In this document: positions 21,566 through 44,493 of the stretch, in pieces
How positions within the stretch are numbered: position 1 is the stretch's first letter
How the letters are laid out: every line of letters starts with the position of its first letter
From: a virus
DNA length: 64,000 nt
IMG/VR virus record: IMGVR_UViG_3300022916_000006
Coordinates: 1 to 64,000 of that record
Strand: one strand, 5' to 3'
Translations under genes and position numbers: made by a program
Notes under the pieces: model-generated
The model's input: the letters and a program-made list of their open reading frames with translations, nothing else
The model's database searches: none
Told to the model about the DNA's origin: nothing

Positions 21566-22093
21566 ATGATAAAATATAACATAGCAAAAGAATTTAACTT
21601 TGATTATGGGCATAGGGTATGGCCTCAAAAACTAAATTCTGAATTTAGCTTAGATTGTGAATTGGCGTGTAGACATTTACATGGACATAGAGGTACTGTA
21701 ATTGTTCACTTAGAATCAGAGGAGTTGGATAACCAAGGAATGGTGACTGATTTTCATCATTTAAATTGGTTTAAGAAGTTCCTAGATGATGCAATTGATC
21801 ATAAATTTATATTGGATAGAAATGATCCGTTGTTACTTGATTTATTTCCACTATTGGTATTGGAGGAAATGAAAGAATATGCAGTAGCTAACTTAAATGA
21901 TGTACCAGTATTATTGTGGGAAATATATGAAGGATTAGTTATAGTTGATTTTATACCAACTTCAGAAAATATGGCAAAGTGGTTATTAGATATTGTTAGC
22001 CATAAAATGAAACCATTATCTGTATTGGTATCTCATATAGAATTTTTTGAAACACCAAAATCACAAAGTGTATGTTATCAAGGAACTATGTAA
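21566..22093 (+). CDS. queD: 6-carboxy-tetrahydropterin synthase (QueD)
   Basis: A 175-residue enzyme for the second step of 7-deazaguanine synthesis, converting dihydroneopterin triphosphate to 6-carboxy-tetrahydropterin. The ACRHLHGHRG segment gives the catalytic Cys and two zinc His ligands, with the earlier His in FDYGHRV; TDFHHL, DHKFIL and PTSEN complete the family pattern, and VSHIEFFETP is the C-terminal Glu. AAGGAG lies before the ATG. It starts a run of preQ0 genes (queD-queE-nuclease-folE-queC) with almost no spacing. Confidence 0.93.
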   Translation: MIKYNIAKEFNFDYGHRVWPQKLNSEFSLDCELACRHLHGHRGTVIVHLESEELDNQGMVTDFHHLNWFKKFLDDAIDHKFILDRNDPLLLDLFPLLVLEEMKEYAVANLNDVPVLLWEIYEGLVIVDFIPTSENMAKWLLDIVSHKMKPLSVLVSHIEFFETPKSQSVCYQGTM

Positions 22094-22840
22094 ATGAATT
22101 ATAATGATATTATTCCCGTAAATGAAGTGTATCCATGTATACAAGGTGAGGGTAGATTAATTGGTGTTCCTCATCTTTTAATCAGAACTACTGGATGTAG
22201 ATTGAAATGTCAATTCTCTGGAGGATCATTTTGTGATACACCATATAGTAGTTGGAATCCTGAAAAGGGTAAATTCTCATTAAATAATATAGTTGATATA
22301 TATAAGGAATTTCCTAATATACGTCATACTATGATAACTGGTGGAGCTCCAACTTTACATTCAAAGTTATTACAAGAATTATGTACAATTGGAAAAGAAT
22401 TTGGGCACTATATTACAATTGAAACAGAGGGTAGTGAATATGTATATACTAAAGCTGATTTGATATCATTATCACCAAAACTATCAAATTCAATTCCAAT
22501 ACCTGGATCAAAAATGGGACAACAAACTGTGACAGATAATGATAGACGGCAACACGTTAAATGGTATAGAAATATAGAAGCTATGAAGGATTTAATAAAA
22601 CACCATCATGATTATCAAATTAAACCAGTAATTTCACAACAATCAGATTTGAATGAGGTTGAAGAATTATTGAAAGAATTAGATGTAGCAAAATGTAAAG
22701 TATATCTAATGCCAGAAGGATTGACTAAAGATCAATTGGAGAGTAGAAGAAAGTGGTTAATACAATTGTGTATTGATCGTGGTTATAATTTCACTGATAG
22801 GCTACATATAATAGCTTATGGTGATAAACGAGGAGTTTAA
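22094..22840 (+). CDS. queE: 7-carboxy-7-deazaguanine synthase (QueE), radical SAM
   Basis: A 248-residue radical-SAM enzyme contracting 6-carboxy-tetrahydropterin to 7-carboxy-7-deazaguanine. VYPCIQGEGRLIG at the N-terminus and CDTPYSSW after the cluster are typical of QueE. The iron-sulfur cysteines are C35, C39 and C47, so the usual C-x3-C-x2-C is stretched to C-x3-C-x7-C by a FSGGSF insert. The GGEP motif is GGAP (83-86). The gene starts right after queD. Identification is firm from context and flanking motifs; the cluster-site variation is noted separately. Confidence 0.9.
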   Translation: MNYNDIIPVNEVYPCIQGEGRLIGVPHLLIRTTGCRLKCQFSGGSFCDTPYSSWNPEKGKFSLNNIVDIYKEFPNIRHTMITGGAPTLHSKLLQELCTIGKEFGHYITIETEGSEYVYTKADLISLSPKLSNSIPIPGSKMGQQTVTDNDRRQHVKWYRNIEAMKDLIKHHHDYQIKPVISQQSDLNEVEELLKELDVAKCKVYLMPEGLTKDQLESRRKWLIQLCIDRGYNFTDRLHIIAYGDKRGV

Positions 22841-22841
22841 T

Positions 22842-23456
22842 ATGGGAACAAAGAAACCATCAAGTAATAAATTATTTAATAAACAATTTTCAAAGGGTAA
22901 AGTAGGTGAAGAATATTTTGAACATGTAATAGCTAAAGATTATTTTGATGAATTATACATGTATAATGATTTTAATAATCCTGTTGACAGGCGATATCAG
23001 ATTGATGGCATAGATGGGTATATAAAGGATAATAAGTGGGATAACAAATATTTTATAGAGATTAAAAGTAATTTGACATATAATCCAATACTTAAAGATT
23101 TTTCAGCTTGTTTAGAATTTAATAAGTGGGATATAAGTGAACAACAACATCATGGAAATGATGAGGAAGAGGGATATATTCAGGATTCAAAGGCACATCG
23201 AATTTATCATCTGGAAGTGATAAATACGAAAAATACAAAATCAGGATTTGTGGGCACTGGAAATTGGGTATATTATGATTTACCAACGATGAGAAATTTT
23301 ATACACCGTGAATGGAATAAACCAAAGGCAACAAATTGGATACGTGCCCTATCGTTTGTTGGAGGATATAATTCTAATTATGCAAGATTAATTTCAATGT
23401 CAGTAAAGGATTCTAGGTTCCCACTTCACAATAAGCGGTCTATAACATACAGATGA
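22842..23456 (+). CDS. PD-(D/E)XK nuclease-like protein in the deazaguanine operon
   Basis: A 204-residue protein. The ATG at 22842 is chosen because it follows GAGGAG (22829-22835 region) and the queE stop. [17 protein letters not shown] at the N-terminus, [12 protein letters not shown], and YFIEIKSN give the order Glu ... Asp ... Glu-x-Lys expected of a PD-(D/E)XK nuclease core. Long His/Glu-rich and aromatic stretches follow. It may cut DNA lacking the modification or process ends, but the position is the only clue. It overlaps folE by four bases, so it is part of the same operon. Confidence 0.6.
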
Positions 23457-24079
23457 TAAAAAAAATAAAAAGTAATGAAAATATAATTAGATCAACATCA
23501 GATCGAGATGAGATGTTGTTGGATGCTACTAAATATTATGGTAAGTTTCTTGATAGTTTGGGATTCGATTGGAAACATGACCCTAATATGATGGATACTC
23601 CAAATCGTGTAGCTAAAATGTTCATTGATGAATTGTATGCTGGAAGTTTTAATGCACCACCAAATATAACAGCATTTGATAATGTAGATGGATATGATGG
23701 TATGGTGTTTCAAGGAAATATTAAGATGCAATCTACTTGTAGTCATCATGCAGTTCCGTTTGTTGGAGTTGCCCATATAGCATATATCCCATCAGCTGAT
23801 GGTAAAATAATAGGTTTGAGTAAATTAAATAGGATTGTTGAATATTATGCAAGAAGACCACAAGTTCAAGAAAACTTAACTATGCAAATACATTCACATG
23901 TTGATCAAATGTGTGAGGGAAATATAGGAGTAGCTGTTATGATAGAAGCAAATCATATGTGTGTGCAAGTGCGTGGGGTGGAACATGATTCTATAATGAA
24001 GACTACTAAATTATCAAAAAGATTCTTAACAGAAGATAAAGTATTAAATGAACTTTATCAATTTATAAATGGACAATAA
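23453..24079 (+). CDS. folE: GTP cyclohydrolase I (FolE)
   Basis: A 208-residue enzyme that opens GTP to dihydroneopterin triphosphate, the first step toward both folate and 7-deazaguanine. [20 protein letters not shown] gives the zinc Cys (C96) and His ligands, [20 protein letters not shown] is the family core, and HMCVQVRG holds the second zinc Cys (C170). DTPNRVAKM is also characteristic. It lies between the nuclease-like gene and queC and so most likely feeds preQ0 synthesis. It overlaps the upstream gene by ATGA. Confidence 0.94.
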
Positions 24080-24082
24080 TAA

Positions 24083-24745
24083 ATGAGTAAAATTAAGAAA
24101 GTAATTATATATTCTGGTGGATTAGATTCATATACGATGTTGATGGATTTATTGTATAAAAACAAATCTATATCAGCCATATCATTTGATTATGGACAGC
24201 GACATGATAAAGAACTTGAGTTTGCTAAACGAGTGTGTAGTAAACATGATATTGAGCATATAGTTGTTGACATAAATTCAATAAATAAACTAATGCAAGG
24301 ATCATCATTAACATCTGATATTGATATACCAGAAGGACATTATGAAGATGAAAACATGAAATCGACAGTTGTACCAAATAGAAACATGATCTTCATATCG
24401 CTTGCAACAGCCTATGCTGTGTCAATAGGGGCGAATGAAGTGTGGACTGGTGTACATGCTGGAGATCATGCGATATACCCTGATTGTCGGGGTGAATTTA
24501 TTGATAAAATAAATGAAGTTACTAAAATTTCAAATTATGAATCTGTTGAAGTAAAAGCTCCATTTATTGAAATGTCTAAAATAGGTATAGTAGATATTGG
24601 TAAACGATTGGGAATTGATTATTCTGATGCATGGACCTGTTATAAGGGTAATGAATTTGCATGTGGAAAGTGTGGATCATGTCAGGAAAGACTTGAAGCA
24701 TTTGATCAAAATGACATTAAGGATCCGATGAGATATGAAACATAA
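24083..24745 (+). CDS. queC: 7-cyano-7-deazaguanine synthase (QueC)
   Basis: A 220-residue ATP-dependent enzyme converting 7-carboxy-7-deazaguanine to preQ0. The P-loop is SGGLDS (11-16) of the PP-loop superfamily; [15 protein letters not shown] and [14 protein letters not shown] are QueC signatures. The C-terminal zinc site is [12 protein letters not shown] with an earlier Cys in WTCYKG. Domain length is normal, and there is no fused glutamine amidotransferase. The product, preQ0, is the usual substrate of DpdA, encoded two genes later. Confidence 0.94.
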
Positions 24746-25421
24746 TTCTGGTGATGAAAAGTTAATACCAATGTTAGAATGGGGAGTACCAGCTGATATT
24801 CAAGGAAGTGATGAAATTGTTTTAAATTCACCAATAATGATCAAGGCACAAGAAAAGATTATTGAATTATTTAAACCAAAAAGTAATACTGCATTTGTTT
24901 CATTATGTACTTCAACTAGACCATATTCATCAGGAAGAAAATGGAACAAATTCATAAAAGAATTTAATGATGTTGATTTTATAATATCATCAAATGGTGG
25001 TGTAATTCCCATTGAATATGAAAATTCATATCCATATTTGACTTATGATGCACATGGTACGATAGAATATGATGAGGTATATAAATTATATACGACAAGA
25101 AATTTAATAAGATTTTTTATACTTAAAAAATATGAGAATATAGTATTTAATTTCAGACCTAATTTAAGAAATAGTAAATCTGCAAAAATTGCTGGGGATT
25201 ATCTTTTTGAAAAAGGACATATAAAAAGTTATTGCATTATACCAAATATTGATTTGTATAATGAGGCACAGAATGATGGATTTACAAAACTTGGATTGTC
25301 AATGTATCCAGATTTACATCCAATAATATTGACAAAATTAAAAGAATCAGTGATTAAATATACAAAAAATACAACGATAAAAAAAGAAAAGGATGAAAAT
25401 GATATTAATTTATTTTGGTGA
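24735..25421 (+). CDS. ArcS/DUF5591-like protein of 7-deazaguanine modification
   Basis: A 228-residue protein overlapping queC by 11 bases. Residues about 54-110 read [14 protein letters not shown] ... [20 protein letters not shown] followed by DAHG. This matches the pattern of the archaeosine-synthase core (DUF5591), which has a Cys, a PYS motif and a (V/I)P-E-(L/Y)E...YP...YD segment. ArcS converts preQ0 in archaeal tRNA to archaeosine or its precursor. Here the domain stands alone without a transglycosylase part and could act on preQ0 already in DNA. The assignment rests on pattern recognition; the reaction in phage is inferred. Confidence 0.6.
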
Positions 25422-25456: not shown

Positions 25457-26647
25457 ATGAGTAACTTTATTTATATACCATCATTCTTTTCTGGTGAATA
25501 TGGTGGGACTATGAAAAAGAATTTTAGATTTTCTAAATCTAATATGACATGTAGATATTATGCTGATGATTTTCCAGAAAAATATCAACATAAATATGCT
25601 TTGATTAGTGCAGGTGCAAATTCATCAAAAACATATAGACACGACTTGGGATTAGACAATTCATTTGTGTTGGGTGATTCTGGTGGTTATCAAATAGCGT
25701 CTGGTGCAATGAAGTGGGATATTAAACATAGAGATAGAATTTTTAACTGGTTAGAAACTAACTCAGATGTTGCTATTAATTTGGACATTCCACCACGAAT
25801 GAAATATGCTGGTAAATTTAATGAATGTTTGGATATTAGTAAAGATAATTTTAAATATTTTTATGAAAATCAAACTGGAAATACTAAATTTTTAAATGTA
25901 TTGCAAGGTGAAAATGAACTATCTTATTTAAATTGGTATAATGGTGTGAAAGATTTCCAGTTTAATGGATGGAGTATTGGAGGAGTTCGGGGTAATTTAT
26001 ATAGAATGTTATCAGGCATATATACTTTAATTAACAATAAAGAACATTTGAATCTTAATAATGATTATTTTCATATATTGGGGGCATCTAGGGTTAGAGA
26101 CTTTTTAATGTTAATTCAATTGCAAAAATCACTTGAGGATATTGGATCAAATATAACGGTTACTACAGATAGTTCAACACCAGATAGGCACGTAGTGTAT
26201 GGATTATATTTCATTAATTATAGCATTAAGCATGAAAATTTAGATGCTATTACGTTTCCAAATGGAAGCAATAATCCAGATATTATTGATTGGTTTAAGA
26301 CAACGAATCAAACTATACCCAAATTTACAGAATTTGATAATATAATAGGGGAAGAATTTTCATGGAAAGATGTTGCTGATTGGAATTTAGATTGTAAGAT
26401 TGGTATGAGATTGCATAATTTTTATTTATTAAAAGATGCAATTCAAGCAATTACTTGGTTAGTGTATGGGCATGATTACATATTGAAACAAAGTATAAAT
26501 TCTAATACATATAAAATTTTACAGTCAATTGATGAGATGGTGAAATCAAGTAATCCAACAAAGATATTTGAAAAATATAAACCATTATATATGAAATTAA
26601 GTAATATGTCAATTAAAACTGATGTTAAAAATCACGATTTTTTTTAA
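25457..26647 (+). CDS. dpdA: DNA guanine transglycosylase (DpdA), TGT-fold
   Basis: A 396-residue protein predicted to exchange guanine in DNA for preQ0 or a derivative. The ATG at 25457 follows GGAGGAA (25444-25450); an in-frame ATG at 25415 lacks a ribosome-binding site. TGT landmarks are DSGGYQ (74-79), VLQGE, GGVRGN, FHILGASRVRD and TDSSTPDR, whose Asp matches the TGT nucleophile. The Cys-rich zinc site of tRNA TGT is absent, as in DpdA proteins. Its place at the end of the preQ0 genes strongly supports a DNA rather than tRNA target. Confidence 0.85.
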   Translation: MSNFIYIPSFFSGEYGGTMKKNFRFSKSNMTCRYYADDFPEKYQHKYALISAGANSSKTYRHDLGLDNSFVLGDSGGYQIASGAMKWDIKHRDRIFNWLETNSDVAINLDIPPRMKYAGKFNECLDISKDNFKYFYENQTGNTKFLNVLQGENELSYLNWYNGVKDFQFNGWSIGGVRGNLYRMLSGIYTLINNKEHLNLNNDYFHILGASRVRDFLMLIQLQKSLEDIGSNITVTTDSSTPDRHVVYGLYFINYSIKHENLDAITFPNGSNNPDIIDWFKTTNQTIPKFTEFDNIIGEEFSWKDVADWNLDCKIGMRLHNFYLLKDAIQAITWLVYGHDYILKQSINSNTYKILQSIDEMVKSSNPTKIFEKYKPLYMKLSNMSIKTDVKNHDFF

Positions 26648-32851: not shown

Positions 32852-34270
32852 ATGACAAAGAAAGTTAACACAAATTCTGAAATTCCATTCAAAGATAGAA
32901 AAAAGATATTAATATTAGCAGATGATTTACGAACACATTCTGGTGTAGGAGTTATGACAAAAGAGATTGTTATGGGAATGTTACATCAATATAAAATATG
33001 TCAAATTGGAAGTGCTTTGAATCATCCAAATAGTGGTGAGATTTCAGATTTAAGTGATGCTGTGAAAAAAGATTTAAATCTCAATGATGCATATTTAAAA
33101 ATATATGCAAACAAAGGATATGGTAATCCTGATTTATTGAGAGAAATAATATCAATGGAAAAACCAGATGCTATATTAATTTATACTGATCCAAGATATT
33201 TTGAATGGTTGTTTACTATGGAACATGAAGTGAGACAGACTGTTCCAATTTCATATTATACAATATGGGATGACTTACCTGATCCACTATACAATAAACA
33301 ATATTATAAATCATGTGATCTACTACTACCAATTAGTAAGCAAACACATGGATTATTGCATAGAATTTTAAAAGATGAGAATCTACCAGACTGGGCTATT
33401 CAATATATACCACATGGTATAAATCCAAAACGATTCTTTAAAGTAGATGATGCAGATGAAAAATATGTTGAATTTAAAAATATATTTAAGTTAGATGATT
33501 ATAAATTTAAAATATTATATTCAAATAGAAATATCAGACGTAAAAATCCAGGTGATGTAATATTAGCATATAAACATTTTGTAGATAAACTACCAAAAGA
33601 TAAGGTTAAAGAAGCATTGTTAATATTTCATACTGCACCAGTTGATAATAATGGAACAGATTTACGTGCTGTATGTAAAGATTTATTACCTAAAGAATAT
33701 AATGTATTATTTACACATGATGTGTTTGGTAGACCATTCACCGATGAAGAGATGAACTACATTTTTAATTCAGCTGATATGTATATCAACATGGCATCAA
33801 ATGAAGGATTTGGATTGGGTAGTGCAGAAGCGTTGGCAGTTGAAACTCCAATCATAGTGAATGTCACAGGTGGATTACAAGATCAGTGTGGATTTAGAGA
33901 TGATAATGGTAAATTATTGACAGCAGATGATTATATTGAACTTGGATCAAATCATGAAAAACGATATTTAGATTATGGTGATTGGTGTGAGGCTGTGTTC
34001 CCAAAAGTGTTAACACTTCAAGGTTCTCCACCAACACCGTATATCTACGATGATAAAGCTGATTACAAAGACTTTGGTGATGGATTATTTAAGTGGTATA
34101 ATAAGACTGAAGAAGAACGTGCTGAAGCTGGTAAACATGGTAGAGAGTTCTTATATGGACCCGATGCGTGTATGGGAGTGGATGATATGTGTGCAAGATT
34201 CATTAATGCATATGAAGATTTATTTGCTAATTGGAAACCAAGAACTAGATTTGAATTGTATAAGGTATAA
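32852..34270 (+). CDS. Glycosyltransferase, GT-B fold (GT4-like)
   Basis: A 472-residue protein. LILADDLRTHSGVGVMTKEI near the N-terminus is the acceptor-side glycine loop; LLLPISKQTHGLLHRI and YIPHGINPKRFF mark the domain joint; RNIRRKNPGDVILAYKHFV is the nucleotide-sugar domain start; EGFGLGSAEALAVETPIIVN is the E-x7-E motif of GT4 enzymes. It would transfer a sugar from a nucleotide donor to an unknown acceptor. First gene of the glycosylation island. Confidence 0.88.
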   Translation: MTKKVNTNSEIPFKDRKKILILADDLRTHSGVGVMTKEIVMGMLHQYKICQIGSALNHPNSGEISDLSDAVKKDLNLNDAYLKIYANKGYGNPDLLREIISMEKPDAILIYTDPRYFEWLFTMEHEVRQTVPISYYTIWDDLPDPLYNKQYYKSCDLLLPISKQTHGLLHRILKDENLPDWAIQYIPHGINPKRFFKVDDADEKYVEFKNIFKLDDYKFKILYSNRNIRRKNPGDVILAYKHFVDKLPKDKVKEALLIFHTAPVDNNGTDLRAVCKDLLPKEYNVLFTHDVFGRPFTDEEMNYIFNSADMYINMASNEGFGLGSAEALAVETPIIVNVTGGLQDQCGFRDDNGKLLTADDYIELGSNHEKRYLDYGDWCEAVFPKVLTLQGSPPTPYIYDDKADYKDFGDGLFKWYNKTEEERAEAGKHGREFLYGPDACMGVDDMCARFINAYEDLFANWKPRTRFELYKV

Positions 34271-34273
34271 TGA

Positions 34274-34531
34274 ATGAATAAAAATAAGAAATTTGCAGAT
34301 GCATTAAAAATTGTAACTGATGAAATAAAAAAAGACCCTGGATTATATATAAGCTATCAATCAAATATAGCTATGATGTTCTATGATACTGTTCTTGATG
34401 ATGCTTATCAAGAAAGAAAATCTCATATAGAAGTAAAAGATATGCATAGATTAGTAAATGAGGCATCAGATAACTTTTTAAGAAGATGGTGTGAATTTAC
34501 AGATGCTGAATGGGTAGCTAAAAAATTATAA
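34274..34531 (+). CDS. Small conserved-looking helical phage protein
   Basis: An 85-residue protein: ADALKIVTDEIKKDPGLYIS, then YQSNIAMMFYD and NEASDNFLRRWCEF. I recognise this pattern from T4-like marine phages as a small all-helical protein of unknown function. The C-terminal TDAEWVAKKL resembles the ending of the small array protein at 56115 (EAEWVAMML). It is wedged between two glycosyltransferase genes. No function assigned. Confidence 0.65.
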   Translation: MNKNKKFADALKIVTDEIKKDPGLYISYQSNIAMMFYDTVLDDAYQERKSHIEVKDMHRLVNEASDNFLRRWCEFTDAEWVAKKL

Positions 34532-34538
34532 GGATAAT

Positions 34539-35888
34539 ATGAAAAAACAAATTGCAATATGTGCTCCAGTCACATCAAAATCTGGATATGGGGCACACTC
34601 AAGAGATATAGTAAGAGCAATATTAAGTCTAAATAAATATGAGTTAAAGATACTTGATGTTAGATGGGGTAGTTGTCAAAGAAATGCATTAGATGAAATT
34701 AAAGATAAGAATATCATTGATTGTTTTTCTGATCAATTAACAAGAAAACCAGATGCATATATTGATATTAGAATACCAAATGAATTTGAACAGATATGTG
34801 ATATAAATATTGGAATAACAGCTGGGATTGAAACAACATCAGTATCAACTAAATGGATTGAAGGTTGTAATAAAATGACATCAATTATAGTTCCATCAGT
34901 GCATTCTGCTAATTCATTTCTTAATACATCATATGATATGTTAGATACCAAAGATAATAATAAAAAGATTGGATCACTTAAAGTTGAAAAGCCAATGCAT
35001 GTTATTTTCGAGGGTGCTGATGCAAATATATATAAACCACTTAAAGTGAATGAGATGGATACTAATATATTGAAATTGTTGAATGATACAATATCAGAAC
35101 AGTTTTGTTTCTTATTTGTTGGTCAATGGGGTAAAGGTAATATGGGTGAAGATCGAAAAGATATTGGCACATTAATTAAAACATTCATTGAAACATTTGC
35201 TAATAGAAGCAAACAACCTGCCTTGATTTTGAAAACAAATGGTGCTGGATATTCATGTGGTGAAGAATCAAATATAATCAATAATATAAATTTAATTAAA
35301 GCAATGTTTCCAGATACTGTGAAAATGCCAAATATATATTTATTGCATGGTGATCTAACAGATGATGAAATGAATAGTTTATATAATCATCCAAAAGTTA
35401 AAGCGATGGTATCATTTACACATGGTGAAGGATATGGAAGACCATTATTGGAAGCGACTATGGTTGGATTACCTGTCATTGCATCTGATTGGAGTGGACA
35501 AAAGGATTTCTTAACTGGTGAACATTCAATATTGTTGGGTGGAGAATTGCAACAAATACCACAAAATATTGTGTGGAAAGATATTCTAATTCCTGAAAGT
35601 GCATGGTTTAATATCAATATAGATCAAGCACGACAATCACTATCATACATGTTTTCGAACTATATGATTATGAAACGTAAGGCTGAAACATTAATGCGAA
35701 TGAATAGAGACAAGTTCACATTGAAGAAGATGGCAGTTCAGTTTGATAAATATCTTGATAGTATTTTTAATTCCTTTGGTGAACAACAAATAAAATTACC
35801 AGAAAAGATAAAATTACCAAAATTGAAAAAAGTTGAAAAACCACAAAAAATTGAATTACCTAAATTAAAGCGAATTGTGAAAAAATAA
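34539..35888 (+). CDS. Glycosyltransferase, GT-B fold, with Lys/Pro-rich tail
   Basis: A 449-residue protein with AAGGA before the ATG. APVTSKSGYGAHSRDIVRAI is the N-terminal glycine loop; IIVPSVHSANSFL and VIFEGADANIYKPL lie at the hinge; FLFVGQWGKGNMGEDRKDIG starts the donor domain; HGEGYGRPLLEATMVGLPVI is the E-x7-E motif. The last 40 residues repeat KLP.K..LPKLK.., a basic, probably disordered tail that could tether the enzyme. Acceptor unknown. Confidence 0.87.
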   Translation: MKKQIAICAPVTSKSGYGAHSRDIVRAILSLNKYELKILDVRWGSCQRNALDEIKDKNIIDCFSDQLTRKPDAYIDIRIPNEFEQICDINIGITAGIETTSVSTKWIEGCNKMTSIIVPSVHSANSFLNTSYDMLDTKDNNKKIGSLKVEKPMHVIFEGADANIYKPLKVNEMDTNILKLLNDTISEQFCFLFVGQWGKGNMGEDRKDIGTLIKTFIETFANRSKQPALILKTNGAGYSCGEESNIINNINLIKAMFPDTVKMPNIYLLHGDLTDDEMNSLYNHPKVKAMVSFTHGEGYGRPLLEATMVGLPVIASDWSGQKDFLTGEHSILLGGELQQIPQNIVWKDILIPESAWFNINIDQARQSLSYMFSNYMIMKRKAETLMRMNRDKFTLKKMAVQFDKYLDSIFNSFGEQQIKLPEKIKLPKLKKVEKPQKIELPKLKRIVKK

Positions 35889-35895
35889 GGAAAAC

Positions 35896-36366
35896 ATGGA
35901 ACAAAATAGAATAACAACAAATTGCCCACTGTGTGATTCATTGGGAACATTAGATGTAGTGACATTACCAAGTACAATACAGAATATGCAATGTATATCA
36001 TGTGGGTATACAACTTCAACAGATTATGATGCAACAAATATGGAATTTCATACTGCATATATTAATATTGAAGAGAAATTAAAACAACATATCAAGATTA
36101 AAAATGATACCTTTTGGATTCCAATTGTTATGATGTTACCAAGTGGAGCTATTACACCATCTGCTAGTAAAGATGATTCATTAAAATGGAATGTATCTCT
36201 ATTGGTAGATATTCCAGAAGAAGAACAGTTTGCTTATCCAGATAGTACGGGTGGTTTTTATCAACAGAGGTATGATGTAGAACATTATGTTATTTTTGAC
36301 ACGTTCAAAGGTGCATTAAATTCATTAATAGATTTGAACAATAGAATTGCAGATAATAGATCATAG
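35896..36366 (+). CDS. Zinc-ribbon-containing phage protein
   Basis: A 156-residue protein. NCPLCDS and MQCISCGYTTS (within residues 1-45) form a zinc ribbon. The rest (DTFWIPIVMMLPSGAITPSA, KWNVSLLVDIPEEE, QRYDVEHYVIFDTFKGAL) is a compact alpha/beta region seen in T4-like marine phages but of unknown role. It overlaps the next gene if that gene uses its TTG start. Confidence 0.65.
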   Translation: MEQNRITTNCPLCDSLGTLDVVTLPSTIQNMQCISCGYTTSTDYDATNMEFHTAYINIEEKLKQHIKIKNDTFWIPIVMMLPSGAITPSASKDDSLKWNVSLLVDIPEEEQFAYPDSTGGFYQQRYDVEHYVIFDTFKGALNSLIDLNNRIADNRS

Positions 36367-36814
36367 ACGTAAGATAACACTTAGGCAATCAGTTTATCAT
36401 ATAAATAAACTATTACCTGGTATGATAATTCAATTTTCATATTATGGTGAGGAACGGGTTGATAAGCGACCATTGATATTATTTTTATATCATGATAGAA
36501 CGAAAAAACTAGTACATGGTATTAATTTAAATTATATATATGATTATGAAGTGCAACAAATATTTGATAATGCGGCTAAAATAACAAAAGTTAAAATGGA
36601 AAATGAATCAATATTATCAGAGAAAGAATATACAAGAATACTTATTCCAAGAAGTAGATCAGAGCAAACAACCAAGAAGTTATATGAGAATATAATTAAA
36701 CCAACTCTGATTGAATATGATATATATCGAACGTATAAACCAGCTAAAATTAGAAGAATTAAATTGGTTACATATAAATTAGGTAGAGGCAAGATCACTA
36801 AACAAAAATTATAA
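36347..36814 (+). CDS. Basic phage protein of unknown function, start uncertain
   Basis: A 155-residue basic protein if begun at TTG 36347, which overlaps the upstream gene and lacks a clear ribosome-binding site. The next ATG (36421) would remove 25 residues just before PGMIIQFSYYG. Visible features are IIQFSYYGEERVDKRPLILF and VHGINLNYIYDYE, resembling small phage proteins that I cannot name, and a very basic C-terminus rich in Arg and Lys. It may be a structural or DNA-binding protein. It sits among glycosylation genes without an obvious link to them. Confidence 0.6.
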   Translation: MQIIDHRRKITLRQSVYHINKLLPGMIIQFSYYGEERVDKRPLILFLYHDRTKKLVHGINLNYIYDYEVQQIFDNAAKITKVKMENESILSEKEYTRILIPRSRSEQTTKKLYENIIKPTLIEYDIYRTYKPAKIRRIKLVTYKLGRGKITKQKL

Positions 36815-36823
36815 GAGGTAGAC

Positions 36824-37672
36824 ATGAAAATATCATACGCCATTATGTGCCATAATGAGGGTGATGAGTTGAGAACATTAATAGATACTATTGTAGAACA
36901 TATTACAGACGAAGATGAGATAGTATTATTGGATGATTATTCAACAAACAAAGAGACAAAATTATTAATAGATACTTATGTTCCAATACATAATATCGTA
37001 TATGAACAACGTCATTTATATAGTGACTTCGCTGGACAAAAGAATCATTTAAGAAAGATGTGTTCAGGTGATTATATTTTTAATTTAGATGCCGATGAAG
37101 TTCCACATAAATGGTTATTAGCTAATATAAAAGAAGTGTTGTCATTAAATGATAATGTAGATTTATATTTATTGCCTAGACTTAATGTGGTACATGGCAT
37201 TGGTATGTCTCATGTGAATAAATGGGGTTGGAATATATCAGCACATCCACGTCATATTAAATATGAAGTTTTTGATACTGACACAGATCAATATGAATTA
37301 TTAAAGAAATCAGACTTAATTATAAATGAATATTTACCATCTGAATTGAGTACCAAATTAGCTGGTGATACTAAATTATTAACTGGATTATATAAGAGTA
37401 AATATAATAACAAAAATTTAGGTGAGTTCATGGCTGAAGTAGATGGAACTAAACAAGTTGTAGTATATAAAGCACCAATAGTTAATTGGCCTGATAGACA
37501 AGGTAGGATATGGAAAAACATACCAAATATAAGATGGGAAGGGTATGTGCATGAACGAATAGTTGGATACACAAAATACTCAAGATTTCCAGATGATATG
37601 CAATATTCAATTATACACGTCAAGGAAATAGCAAAACAAGTTACACAGAACGAATTCTACGATACAATATAA
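36824..37672 (+). CDS. Glycosyltransferase, GT-A fold (GT2-like)
   Basis: A 282-residue protein with AGAGG before the ATG. SYAIMCHNEGDELRTLIDTI at the N-terminus, IVLLDDYSTNKET and FNLDADEVPHKWLL (the DxD-type metal site, here DADE) are GT2 landmarks; WEGYVHERIVGY near the C-terminus is typical of this GT2 subgroup. It would use a nucleotide-sugar with a divalent metal. Acceptor unknown. Confidence 0.85.
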   Translation: MKISYAIMCHNEGDELRTLIDTIVEHITDEDEIVLLDDYSTNKETKLLIDTYVPIHNIVYEQRHLYSDFAGQKNHLRKMCSGDYIFNLDADEVPHKWLLANIKEVLSLNDNVDLYLLPRLNVVHGIGMSHVNKWGWNISAHPRHIKYEVFDTDTDQYELLKKSDLIINEYLPSELSTKLAGDTKLLTGLYKSKYNNKNLGEFMAEVDGTKQVVVYKAPIVNWPDRQGRIWKNIPNIRWEGYVHERIVGYTKYSRFPDDMQYSIIHVKEIAKQVTQNEFYDTI

Positions 37673-37680
37673 GAGATAAT

Positions 37681-38529
37681 ATGCATTTTTGGAGAATAGT
37701 AGATAATGTTCTATATAAAGTCAATGATACTGACAATTTGGGATTCACAATTAATGATCCGTCATACATACCAGATGAATATTTAGATGATCAAAAGTTT
37801 TGCATTATGAGAACTTGTCATGGTATTGGAGATTGGGGAATCATATCGGCAATGCCTAGATTGTTAAAAGAGAAGTATCCAAAATGTACAGTGCAAGTTC
37901 CAAGTGAAATGATGATGAATACTATATTTGGTGATAATAATACTAAACATAAAATGTCCAATGTGATATTTAAAAACAATCCATATGTTGATGACTTTAT
38001 TGATTCAGTAGATGGTGATGTATATCATGACCATTATAGAATTTATGATGATAATAATGCTAATACACCACTCATCAATCAAATACTTAAATTCTGGCAA
38101 TTCGATGCTAATGAGTATGTAGATAATCAACCAGAAATATATTGGACTAGTGATGAAAAGAAATTAGGTAATGATATAATAGATGAATATGTGGGTGGTG
38201 GTAAGTTTGGATGTTTATTATTATCAGATAGATATGACTATAAACGAAATGATATGATATCAAAATATTTAAGATTACATAGAGATATTAAATGGTTATA
38301 TTGGACATCAAAACCATTATCTGAAATTGATATATATAAACCAGAATTTGTATTGGATATGAGACATATTGATATTAGAGTTCAACTATACATTAAATCT
38401 AAAGCTACGTTAAATTTAGGAAGTCAAACAGGAATGACTCAAACAGTTGCACGTTATTCAAATTTATTAACAATACAGAGACAGTTTCCAATTGGAAGTA
38501 ATTATGTTAAAGGTGAAATATATATATGA
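37681..38529 (+). CDS. Glycosyltransferase-like protein (GT9/heptosyltransferase-like)
   Basis: A 282-residue protein. CHGIGDWGIISAMPRLLKEK resembles the G-x-GD loop of heptosyltransferase-type GT-B enzymes, the middle holds domain-joint features, and LNLGSQTGMTQTVARYSNL matches the donor-site loop (G-x-x-S-G-x-x-H region) in a variant form. The active-site His is not clear. It overlaps the next gene by ATGA, so the two are co-translated. Confidence 0.65.
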   Translation: MHFWRIVDNVLYKVNDTDNLGFTINDPSYIPDEYLDDQKFCIMRTCHGIGDWGIISAMPRLLKEKYPKCTVQVPSEMMMNTIFGDNNTKHKMSNVIFKNNPYVDDFIDSVDGDVYHDHYRIYDDNNANTPLINQILKFWQFDANEYVDNQPEIYWTSDEKKLGNDIIDEYVGGGKFGCLLLSDRYDYKRNDMISKYLRLHRDIKWLYWTSKPLSEIDIYKPEFVLDMRHIDIRVQLYIKSKATLNLGSQTGMTQTVARYSNLLTIQRQFPIGSNYVKGEIYI

Positions 38530-39482
38530 AAATAGTTGTTATATCACCCAAAGACAAGATGGATTATTTAGCTGAAACTATAATTGAAGGGTTGTATGCA
38601 AATGATGTTGAAATATATGCATCAGACGCAGGCAATGGTATAAAACCAAATGATGTATATAGTGATTTTGATATATTGAAACATTCGAAAACGTGTGATT
38701 TCATTTTTGTGATTTGGGGAAAAGTTATTGGTGGATATACTGGACCTAAATATTATTTACATGATATGATAAATTTACCACATAAGACAATATATATTGA
38801 TGGTAGTGAGTGGACACAAACAGGACATCCAAAACATAACCAAGTTAAACTAGCAAAAGCTGATCAGACTCTTCGTAGAGGAATGCCGTGGATTAATGAG
38901 AAGATGCTAACATCATGCAATTGGTATTTCAAGAGAGAATGTTATCCAGCTGATGTGGAGCTTGGAATTATACCATTGTTATTTGGGACACTTGATAGGA
39001 ATTTCTATAATGAAACTACTGATAAAGAATATGATGTATTCTGTGCATTTGGGCAATTGAATGATGGTTTGCGATCTGAAATAACGGAAGTGTGTCGTAA
39101 AATAAAATCAGATGGATATAATGTCATAGTAGATAGTGGTATGGAATATGATGAATATAAGATGAAATTATCAAAATCATACATATCAATTGATTCATGG
39201 GGTGGTGGTGATTGTTGTGCTAGATTGTGGGAAATATTTGCCAATAAGTCATGTGCATTTTCACAGAGATATAATATAGAATTTCCAGACAAATTCATTG
39301 ATGGTGTGAGTTTTGTAGAATTTGATACCATCAATAACTTTGAGGATAAATTGAGATATTATTTATACAATAGAGAAAAAACATTAGCAATAGCAGAAGC
39401 TGGTTATGATCACATGATGAAATATCATACAGCTAAATATAGAGTTGAATATATATTTAATATGATTGGATGCCCATTATGA
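38526..39482 (+). CDS. Glycosyltransferase, GT-B fold (CgeB-like)
   Basis: A 318-residue protein. The middle has FKRECYPADVELGIIPLLFG and YDVFCAFGQLNDGLRSEITE, and the end has SYISIDSWGGGDCCARLWEI and a final AEAGYDHMMKYHTAKYRVEY. The last pattern is usual at the C-terminus of CgeB-type and related GT4 transferases. The family-level call is moderate. It overlaps both neighbours by four bases. Confidence 0.65.
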   Translation: MKIVVISPKDKMDYLAETIIEGLYANDVEIYASDAGNGIKPNDVYSDFDILKHSKTCDFIFVIWGKVIGGYTGPKYYLHDMINLPHKTIYIDGSEWTQTGHPKHNQVKLAKADQTLRRGMPWINEKMLTSCNWYFKRECYPADVELGIIPLLFGTLDRNFYNETTDKEYDVFCAFGQLNDGLRSEITEVCRKIKSDGYNVIVDSGMEYDEYKMKLSKSYISIDSWGGGDCCARLWEIFANKSCAFSQRYNIEFPDKFIDGVSFVEFDTINNFEDKLRYYLYNREKTLAIAEAGYDHMMKYHTAKYRVEYIFNMIGCPL

Positions 39483-40378
39483 AACGTTTAATAACTGGTG
39501 GTAGTGGATTCATTGGTAAGAATTTAATTGGTGATATTAAGCTATCAAGTGCAAATATAGATTTAACTAATTATGATAATACGATTAATTGTTTTAGATT
39601 TCATTCACCAGATGTTATAATACACTGTGCCGCTAAACATGGAAATTATCTTAATATGAAGAATAATCCTGTAGATCATTTCACTGAAAATATGGCTATA
39701 AATATGAATGTATTAAGATCAGCTATGGAATTGGATATTGATAAAGTTATAATGTTTTCATCAGTTACAGCTTTTCCACATTCAGTTTGGGCGTGTGAAG
39801 AGTCATTGTTACATTTAGGTGAACCACATGCTGAATCGTATGGTCATGGGTATGCTAAACGTATGATTGAAGTGTTGGTTCGGGCATATAGAGAACAGTA
39901 TGGATTGAATTATGTGTGTATGTTTATGTCAAATGTATATGGTCCTCATAATGATTTTAATGTAGAAACGTCTACAGTTGTATCAAATTTAATACGTAAA
40001 TGTCACACAGCTAAAATTAAGAATGAAAATCTAACTGTATATGGTGATGGTACACCAGAGCGTGATTTTATGTATGTGAATGATATTAATGATGTGGTAG
40101 ATCGAGTGATAGATAATTTTGATGATGATACAGGTGGAAGTGTAATAATATCAAATAGCCATCCAGTATCGATTAAACAATTAGTTAATATCATATCAGA
40201 TGCTATGGACTTTAAAGGTAAGATTATATGGCAACCAAATGCCAATGTTGGTCAATCAATTAAAGTATCTAACAATTCAAAGTTGATGAGTATGTATCCA
40301 GATTTAAAATTCACTGATATAGAAGATGGGATAAGAATGACCGTTGAGTGGTTTTTATCTAATGTGAGTAAGATATGA
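39479..40378 (+). CDS. fcl: GDP-L-fucose synthase-like NAD(P)-dependent epimerase/reductase
   Basis: A 299-residue short-chain dehydrogenase. The ATG at 39479 gives the usual ATGA overlap; an in-frame ATG at 39470 would add three residues. ITGGSGFIGKNLIG is the NAD(P) loop; FSSVTAF and YGHGYAKRM provide the Ser and Tyr-x3-Lys active site; DGTPERDFMYVNDIND fits GDP-fucose synthase. With the GDP-mannose dehydratase at 52428 it could make GDP-L-fucose. Another 4-keto-sugar reductase or epimerase is possible. Confidence 0.8.
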   Translation: MKRLITGGSGFIGKNLIGDIKLSSANIDLTNYDNTINCFRFHSPDVIIHCAAKHGNYLNMKNNPVDHFTENMAINMNVLRSAMELDIDKVIMFSSVTAFPHSVWACEESLLHLGEPHAESYGHGYAKRMIEVLVRAYREQYGLNYVCMFMSNVYGPHNDFNVETSTVVSNLIRKCHTAKIKNENLTVYGDGTPERDFMYVNDINDVVDRVIDNFDDDTGGSVIISNSHPVSIKQLVNIISDAMDFKGKIIWQPNANVGQSIKVSNNSKLMSMYPDLKFTDIEDGIRMTVEWFLSNVSKI

Positions 40379-41166
40379 TAACAGTAGTGACTCCAATATA
40401 TATCAACACGGATGATAGACTTAGATATTTTAGAGAAACGATTGAGTCATTTTATGAACATTTAGAATATGATCAAGATATAATACATAATTTAGTAAAT
40501 GATAGATCAGACGATAAATATACTGAAGACATTCAAGAAATATGTGAAGATTATAATATAAACATTATACATACTATGCCTTCAAATAGAGAGTATTTTT
40601 CTGATGTTATTAAAATATTATTATCATCAGTTGATACAGAATATTATTTGTATTTAGAACCAGATTATCATTTTTATTTGAATTATGATTATATTACACC
40701 AATCTTGAAATTGTATGAGATTAGACCAGAATTACATCAAGTATATCTCAGACATGGTATACATAATAATAAAGGTCGTAGTGCATTTAAGAAACTATAT
40801 ATGCGAGATGATAAATTAATAACACCAGATAATACTATTTTGAATAGGCATGTTATTGATGATAATAATGTTGGGTGGACTGGTAAGGGAACTGAACATG
40901 AAACATTTTCAACAAATCCATCAATATTTAAATTGAGTACAGTGTTACCATATTTTAGTCAGAATTTAAACTTTAAAACACCAGGAACATTTGAAACACA
41001 TTGGTGGAGAGAATGGGAAAATAAAAAAGAAGTTGGTTATTTAAATGGACAAAGTTTTTGTTATCACATTGGTAAATTGGGTGGACTAAACAATAATAAA
41101 TTATATGCGGCATTGGAAATCAATGATATTGATTATGAATCAGTATATTCTAATAAATTCGTATAA
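40375..41166 (+). CDS. Glycosyltransferase-like protein, GT-A fold
   Basis: A 263-residue protein starting ITVVTPIYINTDDRLRYFRE, the beta-strand and loop that begin GT-A enzymes. A DVIKILLSSVDTEYYLYLEP segment followed by DYHFY takes the place of a DxD metal site (EPDYHF). The C-terminal TPGTFETHWWREWENKKEVG and FCYHIGKLGG look like an acceptor-binding part. It overlaps the epimerase gene upstream by four bases. Acceptor unknown. Confidence 0.7.
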   Translation: MITVVTPIYINTDDRLRYFRETIESFYEHLEYDQDIIHNLVNDRSDDKYTEDIQEICEDYNINIIHTMPSNREYFSDVIKILLSSVDTEYYLYLEPDYHFYLNYDYITPILKLYEIRPELHQVYLRHGIHNNKGRSAFKKLYMRDDKLITPDNTILNRHVIDDNNVGWTGKGTEHETFSTNPSIFKLSTVLPYFSQNLNFKTPGTFETHWWREWENKKEVGYLNGQSFCYHIGKLGGLNNNKLYAALEINDIDYESVYSNKFV

Positions 41167-41181
41167 TAATTGGAGATGAAG

Positions 41182-41829
41182 ATGAGATATTTGACAGAGC
41201 TTGGAAATAAGTATGGTACTGACAGAGCTAGTGTGGTTGGATGTAAACATAATTACACTGAAATATATGATGAGATATTCGGGACATATAGACATGATGT
41301 TAAACGAGTATTAGAGATTGGGACATATTTAGGTGCTGGTTTGAAGATGTGGCAAGATTACTTTCCAAATGCTACAATATATGGTCTGGAGTATAAGCGA
41401 TTTCCAGATGTAAAATATGATGATACTGATGAGAGAATAATATCAGTGATTGGTGATCAAACAAGTAGAACAGATTGGAGTTCATTTATTGACACATATG
41501 GTGGTGACTTTGATATAATAATAGACGATGGTGAACATGATACGTTTCACCATCAAATTAGTATGGGTATGTTATTTAAACATTTAAATAGTGATGGATG
41601 TTATATCATAGAGGACTTATTTACAACAAGAGCAACAGACACAAGAAATTTGATAACAACTTATGAACAATCAGGTAAAATTGTTGGAAGTCATTTTACT
41701 GAGGATGAAAGAAAATATATTGCATCTAATATTAAATCTCATATTAAGCATAATGGATATTGGCGTGGTAATAGTAAGAATCCTGGTAGTAATGACATAT
41801 TAAAATTATGGGTGGTGACTAAGAAATGA
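41182..41829 (+). CDS. SAM-dependent methyltransferase, probably sugar-modifying
   Basis: A 215-residue protein; ATG 41182 is chosen because GGAG (41172-41175) lies six bases before it, though upstream in-frame starts exist at 41170 and 41176. VLEIGTYLGAGLKMWQDYFP is the SAM-binding loop, IYGLEY the second-strand acid, and IIDDGEHDTFHHQISMGMLF the catalytic Asp/His region found in sugar O-methyltransferases such as the macrocin type. Its place among glycosyltransferases supports a sugar substrate. Confidence 0.75.
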   Translation: MRYLTELGNKYGTDRASVVGCKHNYTEIYDEIFGTYRHDVKRVLEIGTYLGAGLKMWQDYFPNATIYGLEYKRFPDVKYDDTDERIISVIGDQTSRTDWSSFIDTYGGDFDIIIDDGEHDTFHHQISMGMLFKHLNSDGCYIIEDLFTTRATDTRNLITTYEQSGKIVGSHFTEDERKYIASNIKSHIKHNGYWRGNSKNPGSNDILKLWVVTKK

Positions 41830-42638
41830 AAAACAATAAGATATTGGTTGTAATACCAACAACAGCAGGTAGATTGCCATTACTTAAAAAGGTATTAACA
41901 TCAGTGTATTCTAATACAGATTATGATATTAAAACGATAGTTGTTAAAAATGGTACATTCTCAGATTCAGAATATAATGATTTTGATTTTGAAATACCTA
42001 ATGTGATAAAAACAACATCAGATGTTGGAGGTCATATTGCAATGGCGATGAACGTAGGACTTGGATATTTAACAGATGAGCATTGGTTTTTATATCAAGA
42101 AGATGATTTTGTAATATCAACTGAAGATTGGTTGAATCAGATAATTAATACATATGAATCGATTAATAACTGTGGTGCATTGGGAGTTAGATTACATGGT
42201 AGTCAACGTAATAGAGTGATTAAAGACTTCAAGATCAAAGATAAAGACACGTATGAAGTATATTGGTCTGATGGTATAACATTGATAGATGCTGATATAA
42301 TTAGACAGCATAATTTAATATATGATCCACACATGATGACTGTACCTAATGCTGATATAAATCTACAGTTATTGGCATTAAAATATGAAAACTGGAGAAC
42401 AGAATTAACATATACACACCATCATACACCAGGATCGAAAACAGGCACACCAAAATGGAGATATGCAGATACATATGTTGATATGGATGTTGGTGATTGT
42501 CAAATATATTTGAAATATAATAATTCTGGTAATGATAAAATACAAGCATGGGTAGATTCTGATACAGTACGAGCTACCAATTGGTTAATTCGTAATAATC
42601 GACAAAATGAAGATTACAAAAAATTTAAAACTTTATAG
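41826..42638 (+). CDS. Glycosyltransferase, GT-A fold (GT2-like)
   Basis: A 270-residue protein: ILVVIPTTAGRLPLLKKVLT, GGHIAMAMNVGLGYL and WFLYQEDDFVISTEDWL (EDDF in place of DxD) are GT2-type landmarks. It ends with an Arg/Asn-rich helix. It overlaps the methyltransferase gene by ATGA. Donor and acceptor are unknown. Confidence 0.75.
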   Translation: MKNNKILVVIPTTAGRLPLLKKVLTSVYSNTDYDIKTIVVKNGTFSDSEYNDFDFEIPNVIKTTSDVGGHIAMAMNVGLGYLTDEHWFLYQEDDFVISTEDWLNQIINTYESINNCGALGVRLHGSQRNRVIKDFKIKDKDTYEVYWSDGITLIDADIIRQHNLIYDPHMMTVPNADINLQLLALKYENWRTELTYTHHHTPGSKTGTPKWRYADTYVDMDVGDCQIYLKYNNSGNDKIQAWVDSDTVRATNWLIRNNRQNEDYKKFKTL

Positions 42639-42646
42639 GATATAAT

Positions 42647-43804
42647 ATGAAAATTAGAAAAACACCATTGAAAGTATTAGGACCATGTGGTGATGAGGAT
42701 GACGTTCAAGCAATACGAGAAGTTATTGAAAGTGGATGGTGGGGTAAAGGTTCAAAAGTTGATGAGTTCGAAGATAAGTTTGCTAAAATGGTTGGTGCTA
42801 AACATGCGATTGCTGTTACAAGCAATTCACATGGTCAAGATTTGGTAATGAAAGCTATGGGATTTAATGGTATTGATGTTATAAATCCAACAATGTCATT
42901 TGTTGCAACAGCAGTGATACCACATTGGAATAATTGTACATCCAACATAGTAGATGTCGATAGTAGAACATTAAACATAACAGCAGATGAAGTGATGAAA
43001 TATAAAAAACCATCGAGTGAAGTTTGTGTAGCAGTTAATATGGCTGGAATACCTGCACCAATCGATGAGATACGAAAGATATTTGGTGGATTCATAATTG
43101 AAGATTGTGCTCATAGTTGTTATGCAAAGGGTGCTGGAACTAAAGGTGACGTTGCTGTTTGGTCATTTCAAGCAGTCAAAACATTACCAACTGGTGATGG
43201 TGGTATGATAACACTTAATGATGATGCATTAGCAGATAAAATAAGAAATTTACTTTGGTTTGGTGTATCATCTACTTGGAGTAGAGCATCAAATCGATCT
43301 GATATTAATCGTAAATATGTATGGGATTATCAAGTTGAAGAGTTGGGTTATAAATATTACATGACAGATATTGTAGCGGCATTAGGATTATCACAATTAA
43401 AGAAATTACCTAAATTCTTGGACAATAGAAGACACATTCAAAAACGATATAATGAAGAATTACATAGTGTAATAATAAGACCAGAACATTCAGAGACTGT
43501 ACAATATTATTGTGCTAGATTATCAGATAGAATACATGATATTGCACCAGATAATAGTGGATATTCAACTGTTGGTAGAAATAGTTTAATGGCATATTTG
43601 GTAGATAAAAATATTCATACATCAGTACATTTTAAACCATTACATCAATATGATTATTTAAAAACTGATAGATCATATCCAGTTGCAGATGTAGAGTGGT
43701 TAAAACTAGTATCACTACCATGTCACAATGGCATGACAGACGATGATATAAGTTATGTTGTATACTGGGTGAATAAATACATAACTGAGGTGTATAATTC
43801 GTGA
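42647..43804 (+). CDS. PLP-dependent sugar aminotransferase (DegT/DnrJ/EryC1 family)
   Basis: A 385-residue enzyme that transfers an amino group to a keto-sugar nucleotide. ESGWWGKGSKVDEFEDKFAK, AVTSNSHGQDLVMKA, IEDCAHSCYAKGAG (Asp that binds the PLP ring) and WSFQAVKTLPTGDGGMI (Lys that carries PLP) are in family order; ELGYKYYMTDIVAALGLSQL follows. Full length for the family. With GDP-4-keto-6-deoxymannose from the Gmd at 52428 it might make a GDP-amino sugar such as perosamine, but the substrate cannot be read from sequence. Confidence 0.88.
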   Translation: MKIRKTPLKVLGPCGDEDDVQAIREVIESGWWGKGSKVDEFEDKFAKMVGAKHAIAVTSNSHGQDLVMKAMGFNGIDVINPTMSFVATAVIPHWNNCTSNIVDVDSRTLNITADEVMKYKKPSSEVCVAVNMAGIPAPIDEIRKIFGGFIIEDCAHSCYAKGAGTKGDVAVWSFQAVKTLPTGDGGMITLNDDALADKIRNLLWFGVSSTWSRASNRSDINRKYVWDYQVEELGYKYYMTDIVAALGLSQLKKLPKFLDNRRHIQKRYNEELHSVIIRPEHSETVQYYCARLSDRIHDIAPDNSGYSTVGRNSLMAYLVDKNIHTSVHFKPLHQYDYLKTDRSYPVADVEWLKLVSLPCHNGMTDDDISYVVYWVNKYITEVYNS

Positions 43805-44493
43805 GATATTTAATATTAGGTGATGGATTGCTTGGTAATGAATTGATAAGCCAAAGTGGTTGGGACTACATAAGTAGAACAACTGTTGGTGTAGATTTCA
43901 CTGATATAGATTCGTATTCTGAATATCTACATAAATATGATGTTATCATTAATTGTATTGGTTATTGTAATACATATGATACTGACAGAGATGTACATTG
44001 GGATGTAAATTATGCTGGAGTAGTATCATTAGTTGACTTCGTTAATAAATATGATAAGAAGTTAGTTCATATATCAACTGATTATATATATTCAAATTCA
44101 GATTCAAATGCATCTGAAGAGGATGTACCAGTTCATTGTAATACGTGGTATGGTTATACTAAATTATTATCTGATGCGTATGTACAGTTAAGATTAAATG
44201 ATTATTTATTAATTAGAGGAACGCATAAAGAAACACCATTTATATATGAAAAAGCATATATAAATCAAGTTGGTAATTTTGATTATGTTAATGTGATTGC
44301 TAAAATAATACATGATTTAATAAAAGATAATATCATTGGAATATACAACGTTGGTACTGAATTGAAAACGATGGTCGAATTGGCACGTAAAACTAAAAGT
44401 GTAGTTGAACCAACAACCAAGAAATTCAATGACGCAATGCCATCTGATATTAGTATGGATTTAACTAAATTGGATAAATACTATGATAAATAA
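43801..44493 (+). CDS. dTDP-4-dehydrorhamnose reductase-like (RmlD-type) protein
   Basis: A 230-residue NAD(P)-dependent reductase starting with GTG in a GTGA overlap. LILGDGLLGNEL is a shortened Rossmann loop, IINCIGYCNTYDTDRD the cofactor-side segment, VHISTDYIYS the Ser/Thr-Asp pair and YGYTKLLSD the Tyr-x3-Lys site. It is shorter than usual RmlD proteins (about 290), with a reduced C-terminal part. It probably reduces a 4-keto sugar nucleotide. Confidence 0.78.
   Translation: MRYLILGDGLLGNELISQSGWDYISRTTVGVDFTDIDSYSEYLHKYDVIINCIGYCNTYDTDRDVHWDVNYAGVVSLVDFVNKYDKKLVHISTDYIYSNSDSNASEEDVPVHCNTWYGYTKLLSDAYVQLRLNDYLLIRGTHKETPFIYEKAYINQVGNFDYVNVIAKIIHDLIKDNIIGIYNVGTELKTMVELARKTKSVVEPTTKKFNDAMPSDISMDLTKLDKYYDK

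Follow-up and report, generated by a model that had tools for sequence, protein, structure and literature searches.

The archaeal enzyme ArcS of T. kodakarensis moves lysine onto preQ0 (7-cyano-7-deazaguanine), and the radical SAM enzyme RaSEA then forms archaeosine from the resulting preQ0-lysine (PMC11298593). According to the same source, this ArcS is active on the preQ0 nucleoside and nucleotide without requiring tRNA structure, accepts the preQ0 nucleoside 5′-phosphate (the nucleotide Km being high) but not the free base, and yields a preQ0-lysine that blocks reversal by the archaeal TGT. In phages, a homologue from Vibrio phage nt-1 was already named ArcS by Hutinet 2019, an account that did not settle what phage ArcS makes (PMC6884629). 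There, targeted LC-MS of nt-1 DNA gave 232 dPreQ0, 72 dADG and 44 dG+ per million nucleotides, and modification of 18% of G was reported with the 9g genes. In the DNA of phage 6E351A, which we take to be the record 6E35.1a, dPreQ1 amounts to 15% of dG (PMC12028318). Here we describe a related protein of a marine virus, which probably adds a chemical group to a modified guanine of the virus's own DNA, for protection. The kind of protein was thus known before, from nt-1; new here are its spread as a small family over unrelated phages, its mutual exclusion with QueF in nt-1-type clusters, and relatives of the virus in which QueC and the core are missing and a glycosyltransferase-like gene takes their place.

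The ArcS-core gene and its cassette

The window, that is, the whole stretch of 64,000 nucleotides analysed, is part of a 118,745-base virus record known from IMG/VR sequence only. The following features, all on the plus strand, make up the operon around the core gene.

21566–22093, +, QueD (6-pyruvoyl tetrahydropterin synthase family; Pfam PF01242, E 5.4e-28)
22094–22840, +, QueE (7-carboxy-7-deazaguanine synthase; Pfam Radical_SAM, best NCBIfam rows QueE, below cut-off)
22818–23456, +, unnamed protein of 212 aa, between QueE and FolE
23453–24079, +, FolE (GTP cyclohydrolase I; Pfam PF01227, E 1.5e-48)
24083–24745, +, QueC (7-cyano-7-deazaguanine synthase; Pfam PF06508, E 3.3e-67; TIGR00364 above cut-off)
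24735–25421, +, free-standing ArcS-core (DUF5591) protein, 228 aa (Pfam, NCBIfam, PDB 2q07, AlphaFold2 model)
24906–24944, +, first (catalytic) motif of the core, 13 residues, 58–70 (alignment of 100 cores)
25002–25049, +, second motif of the core, 16 residues, 90–105 (alignment of 100 cores)
25457–26647, +, TGT/DpdA-type base-exchange enzyme (fold; DSGGYQ signature)

FolE, QueD, QueE and QueC, recognized with Pfam, and a TGT/DpdA-type enzyme, recognized by fold, are together here, as in a phage 7-deazaguanine DNA-modification cassette. The core gene begins inside queC, sharing its last 11 bases in the window, and the overlap ranges from 8 to 11 bases across the window and two further contigs (L021 and L024).

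A sequence-only reading had described the 228-aa product as a free-standing protein resembling the ArcS core, on account of a CTSTRPYSS segment and a second, later motif. Both are present in the ORF, at residues 58–66 and 90–105, and the resemblance was borne out by profile searches. The ORF matched Pfam DUF5591 (PF17884) with E 8.1e-11 and 42.4 bits, above the cut-off of 26, and its core matched two NCBIfam models of archaeosine synthase alpha (E 2.6e-8 and 2e-7), with scores of 32.9 and 29.8 bits that fall far short of the equivalog cut-offs of 440 and 600 for full-length archaeal ArcS. Archaeal ArcS additionally has an N-terminal region and a PUA tail, both missing here, and the length of 228 aa against 509–702 aa for long archaeal ORFs (one ORF of 324 aa aside) agrees with a free-standing core.

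Among solved structures, AF0587 (PDB 2q07) is the one clear relative, matched by sequence at E 1.1e-5. An AlphaFold2 model of the core (27 aligned sequences, mean pLDDT 81.8, pTM 0.81) matched 2q07 by Foldseek (E 1e-4) and superposed on it with Z 15.4 and rmsd 2.8 over 138 residues, the runner-up reaching Z 6.2; the unrelated fold that could have overturned the ArcS-core assignment was therefore not what structure prediction returned. With the match to 2q07 far above the next one, the product is accordingly an ArcS core that lacks both the N-terminal region and the PUA domain. Macro-domain, SMUG1 and other entries in the fold list (Z of at most 6.2) were set aside as common-fold noise.

The product of 25457–26647 gave no Pfam family at E≤1 and in PHROGs reached 0.09 only; a TGT-family profile search against the PDB gave nothing of note, and the relationship was found by fold alone. 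Foldseek with its model, which is of moderate confidence (pLDDT 70.8), ranked the DNA preQ0 insertase DpdA (7ui4) at the top (E 1.7e-5), and VIA-align matched the model to QTRT1/TGT with Z 19.9 and rmsd 4.5 over 307 residues. Entries for pyruvate carboxylase and further TIM-barrel proteins in the Foldseek list were attributed to the shared barrel. The protein contains DSGGYQ, an instance of the TGT signature DSGG(F/Y)Q. It is the likely partner that inserts preQ0 into DNA.

Elsewhere in the window, genes for a DNA polymerase, a clamp loader, a UvsX-like recombinase and a ribonucleotide reductase are consistent with a replication module of the T4 type. Positions 32852–46853 hold a phage sugar-making cluster: besides several glycosyltransferase-like genes in a row, it includes an NAD-dependent epimerase (39470) and a DegT-type aminotransferase (42647). 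Within the que cassette, the 22818–23456 protein shares GK-x-GE, GID and (D/E)xK-(S/T)-N with the six relatives found; the last pattern resembles the PD-(D/E)xK nuclease motif, and a nuclease sparing modified DNA is a possibility for this product.

Relatives of the core in phages and archaea

When 50,697 phage records were searched with the core by tblastn, three were found, namely nt-1 (two records) and CZ01. In IMG/VR, the combined searches gave eight contigs, three of which carry the window's own protein (100% over the query), the others being L021 to L025. A viral contig scan with the nt-1 core as query returned no relatives, and one with the L025 core returned only itself. With three of 50,697 phage records and eight IMG/VR contigs, the phage core family is small in the collections searched.

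The nt-1 homologue (YP_008125320; PMC6884629) is 39.6% identical to the window core over 90%; it is likewise free-standing (226 aa), has the same Cys/RPY/RKW motif and lies in a QueD-FolE-DpdA2-QueC cluster, so that the window, by homology, free-standing core and DpdA cluster, belongs with the phage ArcS-like group. However, the two loci differ in gene order, in the type of TGT (BLASTP E 0.003 only) and in the place of QueE, which in nt-1 lies elsewhere. L021, L022 and L024 come from a kind of phage unlike the window virus and show the order TGT/DpdA, QueC, core, QueD, QueE, FolE; in L023 the order is TGT/DpdA, QueC, QueD, core, QueE, FolE, and in L025 QueC is followed by the core. A terminase-like gene, identified by eye, comes next in L021, L023 and L024. 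The L025 core (L025:7806-8933) carries about 130 additional C-terminal residues, in which no Pfam match was found. The core is thus beside or near QueC in all phage lineages found (window virus, nt-1/CZ01, L021/L022/L024, L023 and L025), a DpdA/TGT gene is present wherever the contig is long enough, and the accompanying TGT is of at least three types (the window type, DpdA2 of nt-1 and PHROG 887 in L021). The gene orders therefore indicate that the core moves together with QueC and can be paired with different types of TGT, and it is about 60% identical among different phages.

For comparison of residues, 100 cores were aligned: seven from phages, amounting to about five independent ones (nt-1 and CZ01 hardly differ, and L021 resembles L024), 73 long archaeal and 20 short archaeal, the 93 archaeal ORFs coming from a profile search of fetched archaeal loci that are best matches and hence not a random set. 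Cys58, Pro63, Tyr64, Pro92, Pro100 and Tyr104 are invariant in all 100. Asp105 occurs in all seven phage cores and in 72 of the 73 long archaeal ArcS, and in short archaeal cores other residues are commonest at this position. Earlier work described a PC-x3-KPY motif for archaeal ArcS. All 93 archaeal cores conform to PC-x3-KPY-x2-S-x2-H, from which the window protein departs at L57, R62, G67 and W70 while retaining the C, P and Y of PC-x3-KPY. Lys62 and His70 are present in 93/93 archaeal cores and Arg62 and Trp70 in 7/7 phage rows; archaeal Pro57 is replaced by Leu in phage cores, and His139, found in 71 of 73 long ArcS, is Asn in the phage rows. The conservation expected for the Cys and the PYS motif thus held for Cys and PY in every row, whereas the R of RPY is confined to phages, archaea having K. 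On this alignment, R/W in place of archaeal K/H is a new feature of the small phage family.

Archaeal ArcS shares with the phage core DUF5591, Cys-x3-(K/R)-P-Y, the P...YP...YD pattern and the fold, but has the N-terminal region and PUA, and carries K/H/P near the Cys where phages have R/W/L. Short archaeal DUF5591 proteins (202–301 aa) are also free-standing and near the window core in size; they retain PC..KPY..S..H, mostly without the final D of YD, and form a clade separate from the phage one. Among their ten largest neighbour groups, no shared que-like neighbours were noticed. Two DUF5591 genes were counted by eye in about 50 of 120 genomes of one archaeal phylum (that of G003; for example L104-L123), most of the listed second genes being short (open frames of about 204–335 aa), beside a full ArcS, and with the Cys motif kept.

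A tree was computed from 57 sequences, comprising all phage rows, all short archaeal rows and 30 of the 73 long archaeal rows drawn at random. The seven phage cores form one clade (100/100) apart from long archaeal ArcS and short archaeal DUF5591, on a long branch, and the tree program warns of long branches; because of this warning, we leave the root, direction and age of any transfer unsettled. The idea that the domain was shuffled out of an archaeal-type enzyme finds no backing in this separate, deep, long-branched clade: neither a recent domain shuffle from archaea nor an origin in the short archaeal DUF5591 proteins is supported.

Exchanges in the tailoring slot

QueF is a relative of FolE and works through a Cys-thioimide. 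The cluster order is QueD, FolE, DpdA2, QueF, QueC for KVP40 and 6E35.1a, and QueD, core, FolE, DpdA2, QueC for nt-1 and CZ01. In its record, the QueF gene of KVP40 carries the label GTP cyclohydrolase, but by profile it matches QueF. QueF is present in both core-less records, where the core was not found, and it was not found in the core-bearing records of nt-1, CZ01, G000 (the window's virus), G001 and L025; weak QueF matches in G196, G198 and G199 (the records of L021, L023 and L024; one over cut-off) coincide in coordinates with FolE genes and were read as FolE. Gene content thus indicates that core and QueF are mutually exclusive in nt-1-type clusters, with the core appearing to replace QueF. 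QueF has the same slot as the core, that of preQ0-nitrile tailoring in a DpdA2 cluster, but it belongs to another family and makes dPreQ1.

A different exchange was seen in 19 loci of other viruses (L126-L144), which have the window's TGT at 55–64% identity. In the 17 of them with upstream sequence, an ORF of 331–344 aa (239, 244 and similar lengths near a contig start) precedes the TGT, and by BLAST neither QueC nor the core was seen before the TGT in these 17. Two such ORFs that were scanned matched Glycos_transf_1 weakly (E 5e-5 and 1.5e-4, just under the curated cut-off), and one that was run against PHROGs gave a glycosyltransferase match. Examples are L126:4989-5999 and L142:5001-6008; FolE, QueD, QueE and TGT are present without QueC in L126-L143, and L142 additionally has genes for PfkB, a cytidylyltransferase and a cupin. 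A conserved 115-aa protein is encoded between FolE and the gene resembling glycosyltransferases (L126:4679-5026, L138:4664-5011, L142:2468-2815), the one copy scanned having no Pfam match. Among whole contigs with a window-type TGT, some of them short fragments, QueC was missing from 10/10 searched and the core from 5/5 searched. Since TGT relatives without QueC are also without the core, the core behaves as a tailoring module present with the nitrile maker and missing without it, which is expected if the core needs a nitrile. The QueC-less relatives suggest a sugar-bearing base made from 7-carboxy-7-deazaguanine and not from preQ0.

Proposed chemistry and the alternatives

We consider it probable that the phage-type ArcS core tailors preQ0 in the phage's own DNA, in conjunction with TGT insertion and Cys58/amine chemistry. 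FolE, QueD, QueE and QueC would make preQ0, and the adjoining TGT/DpdA-fold protein would exchange guanine in DNA for it; the invariant Cys58 would then attack the nitrile to give a thioimide, whose resolution by an amine, be it lysine, ammonia or another, would yield an amidine. The separate TGT gene would provide the kind of function from which the N-terminal part of archaeal ArcS derives. The earlier suggestion that the protein acts on DNA is likely from context, as the core sits between QueC and a DpdA-type TGT, and a PUA-less core acting on DNA is plausible by analogy, since T. kodakarensis ArcS takes a nucleotide without a tRNA fold. Against this explanation count the change of K62 and H70 in all seven phage rows and of H139 to N, through which the chemistry of the phage core may differ, together with the mere traces of known products in nt-1 DNA and the moderate TGT model.

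Archaeal ArcS works with RaSEA, whereas a RaSEA search (TIGR01210, E≤10) found none in G000 and nt-1 (0/2) or in eight further core-bearing records including CZ01 (0/8), the nt-1 and CZ01 records being complete and the IMG/VR records, G000 included, possibly fragments. The same model was over its cut-off in 5/6 archaeal genomes with ArcS, and among 14 control genomes only three archaeal ones with ArcS passed both the DUF5591 and the RaSEA cut-offs. Radical SAM genes seen in core-bearing phages comprise QueE, a twitch-like gene of nt-1 and a 292-aa one of G000 without a family assignment. In the four that were scanned, RaSEA was not among the matches listed (for one of them, the best 25 of 50); nt-1 has a further, small radical SAM gene near 175133. 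As a RaSEA candidate, the second such gene of G000 (near 101349) was considered and dropped, having no TIGR01210 match. The 292-aa radical SAM protein of the window's virus is found at L011:1381-2259, corresponding to G000 near 101229-102107.

The known derivatives in nt-1 DNA sum to about 0.17% of G, and nt-1 is either poorly modified or has its main product outside the LC-MS targets. The DpdA2 proteins of 6E35.1a and nt-1 are 61.5% identical. A tentative candidate for the end product, possible though on balance doubtful, is preQ0 joined to an amino acid as an amidine, dPreQ0-lysine being the simplest case; this would be a new hypermodified DNA base. With no RaSEA in the records searched, preQ0-lysine would stay uncut, and such an adduct would explain the low level of known derivatives in nt-1, which has a full preQ0 pathway and DpdA2, against that of dPreQ1 in its QueF-bearing relative. 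The active-site changes speak against it, and lysine itself is proposed by analogy to T. kodakarensis; the literature searched, a scope without Cui 2023 and the 2024 MMBR review, showed no DNA base of the preQ0-lysine type.

Direct formation of archaeosine (dG+) by the core, with nitrogen from ammonia or glutamine as first proposed for phage ArcS, would agree with the classing of nt-1 as a dG+ phage on its dG+ trace (PMC6884629), and a bacterial host is no obvious alternative source, as only ArcS archaea among the controls pass the DUF5591/RaSEA cut-offs. That trace is far under the level with the 9g genes, however, and lysine is what T. kodakarensis ArcS transfers, its route to G+ requiring RaSEA (PMC11298593), which no searched record with the core contains, so that we hold this route to be rather unlikely. 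Hydration of the nitrile to the amide (dADG) in an amidohydrolase-like manner was likewise proposed for phage ArcS; the R and W that every phage row has in place of the active-site K and H, and the detection of dADG in nt-1, would fit it, but dADG too is a trace there and may form without an enzyme according to the authors (PMC6884629), and this is distinctly improbable.

The timing of tailoring allows another order of events, in which the core acts on free preQ0 before insertion and the TGT inserts a base already tailored. The overlap of the QueC and core genes would suit this order, and timing is described as likewise open for Gat-QueC of 9g (PMC6884629); with T. kodakarensis ArcS being inactive on the free base, we think it unlikely. 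A tRNA-modifying enzyme or an inactive remnant, brought to mind by the homology to a tRNA enzyme and by the altered motif residues, is very unlikely given the loss of PUA and N-terminal part, the retention of Cys, PY, P92, P100, Y104 and D105 in 7/7 phage rows, and the identity kept across different phages with constant QueC and DpdA/TGT neighbours.

The swap of core for QueF in nt-1-type phages, the absence of RaSEA from the searched records and the changed motif sharpen the question of what phage ArcS makes. They also show that tailoring slots of the deazaguanine cassette can be exchanged. If the lysine adduct is real, phage DNA would carry an amino acid and reversal by the TGT would be blocked, as it is by preQ0-lysine for the archaeal TGT, and the repertoire of phage DNA modifications could gain a deazaguanine that bears an amino acid.
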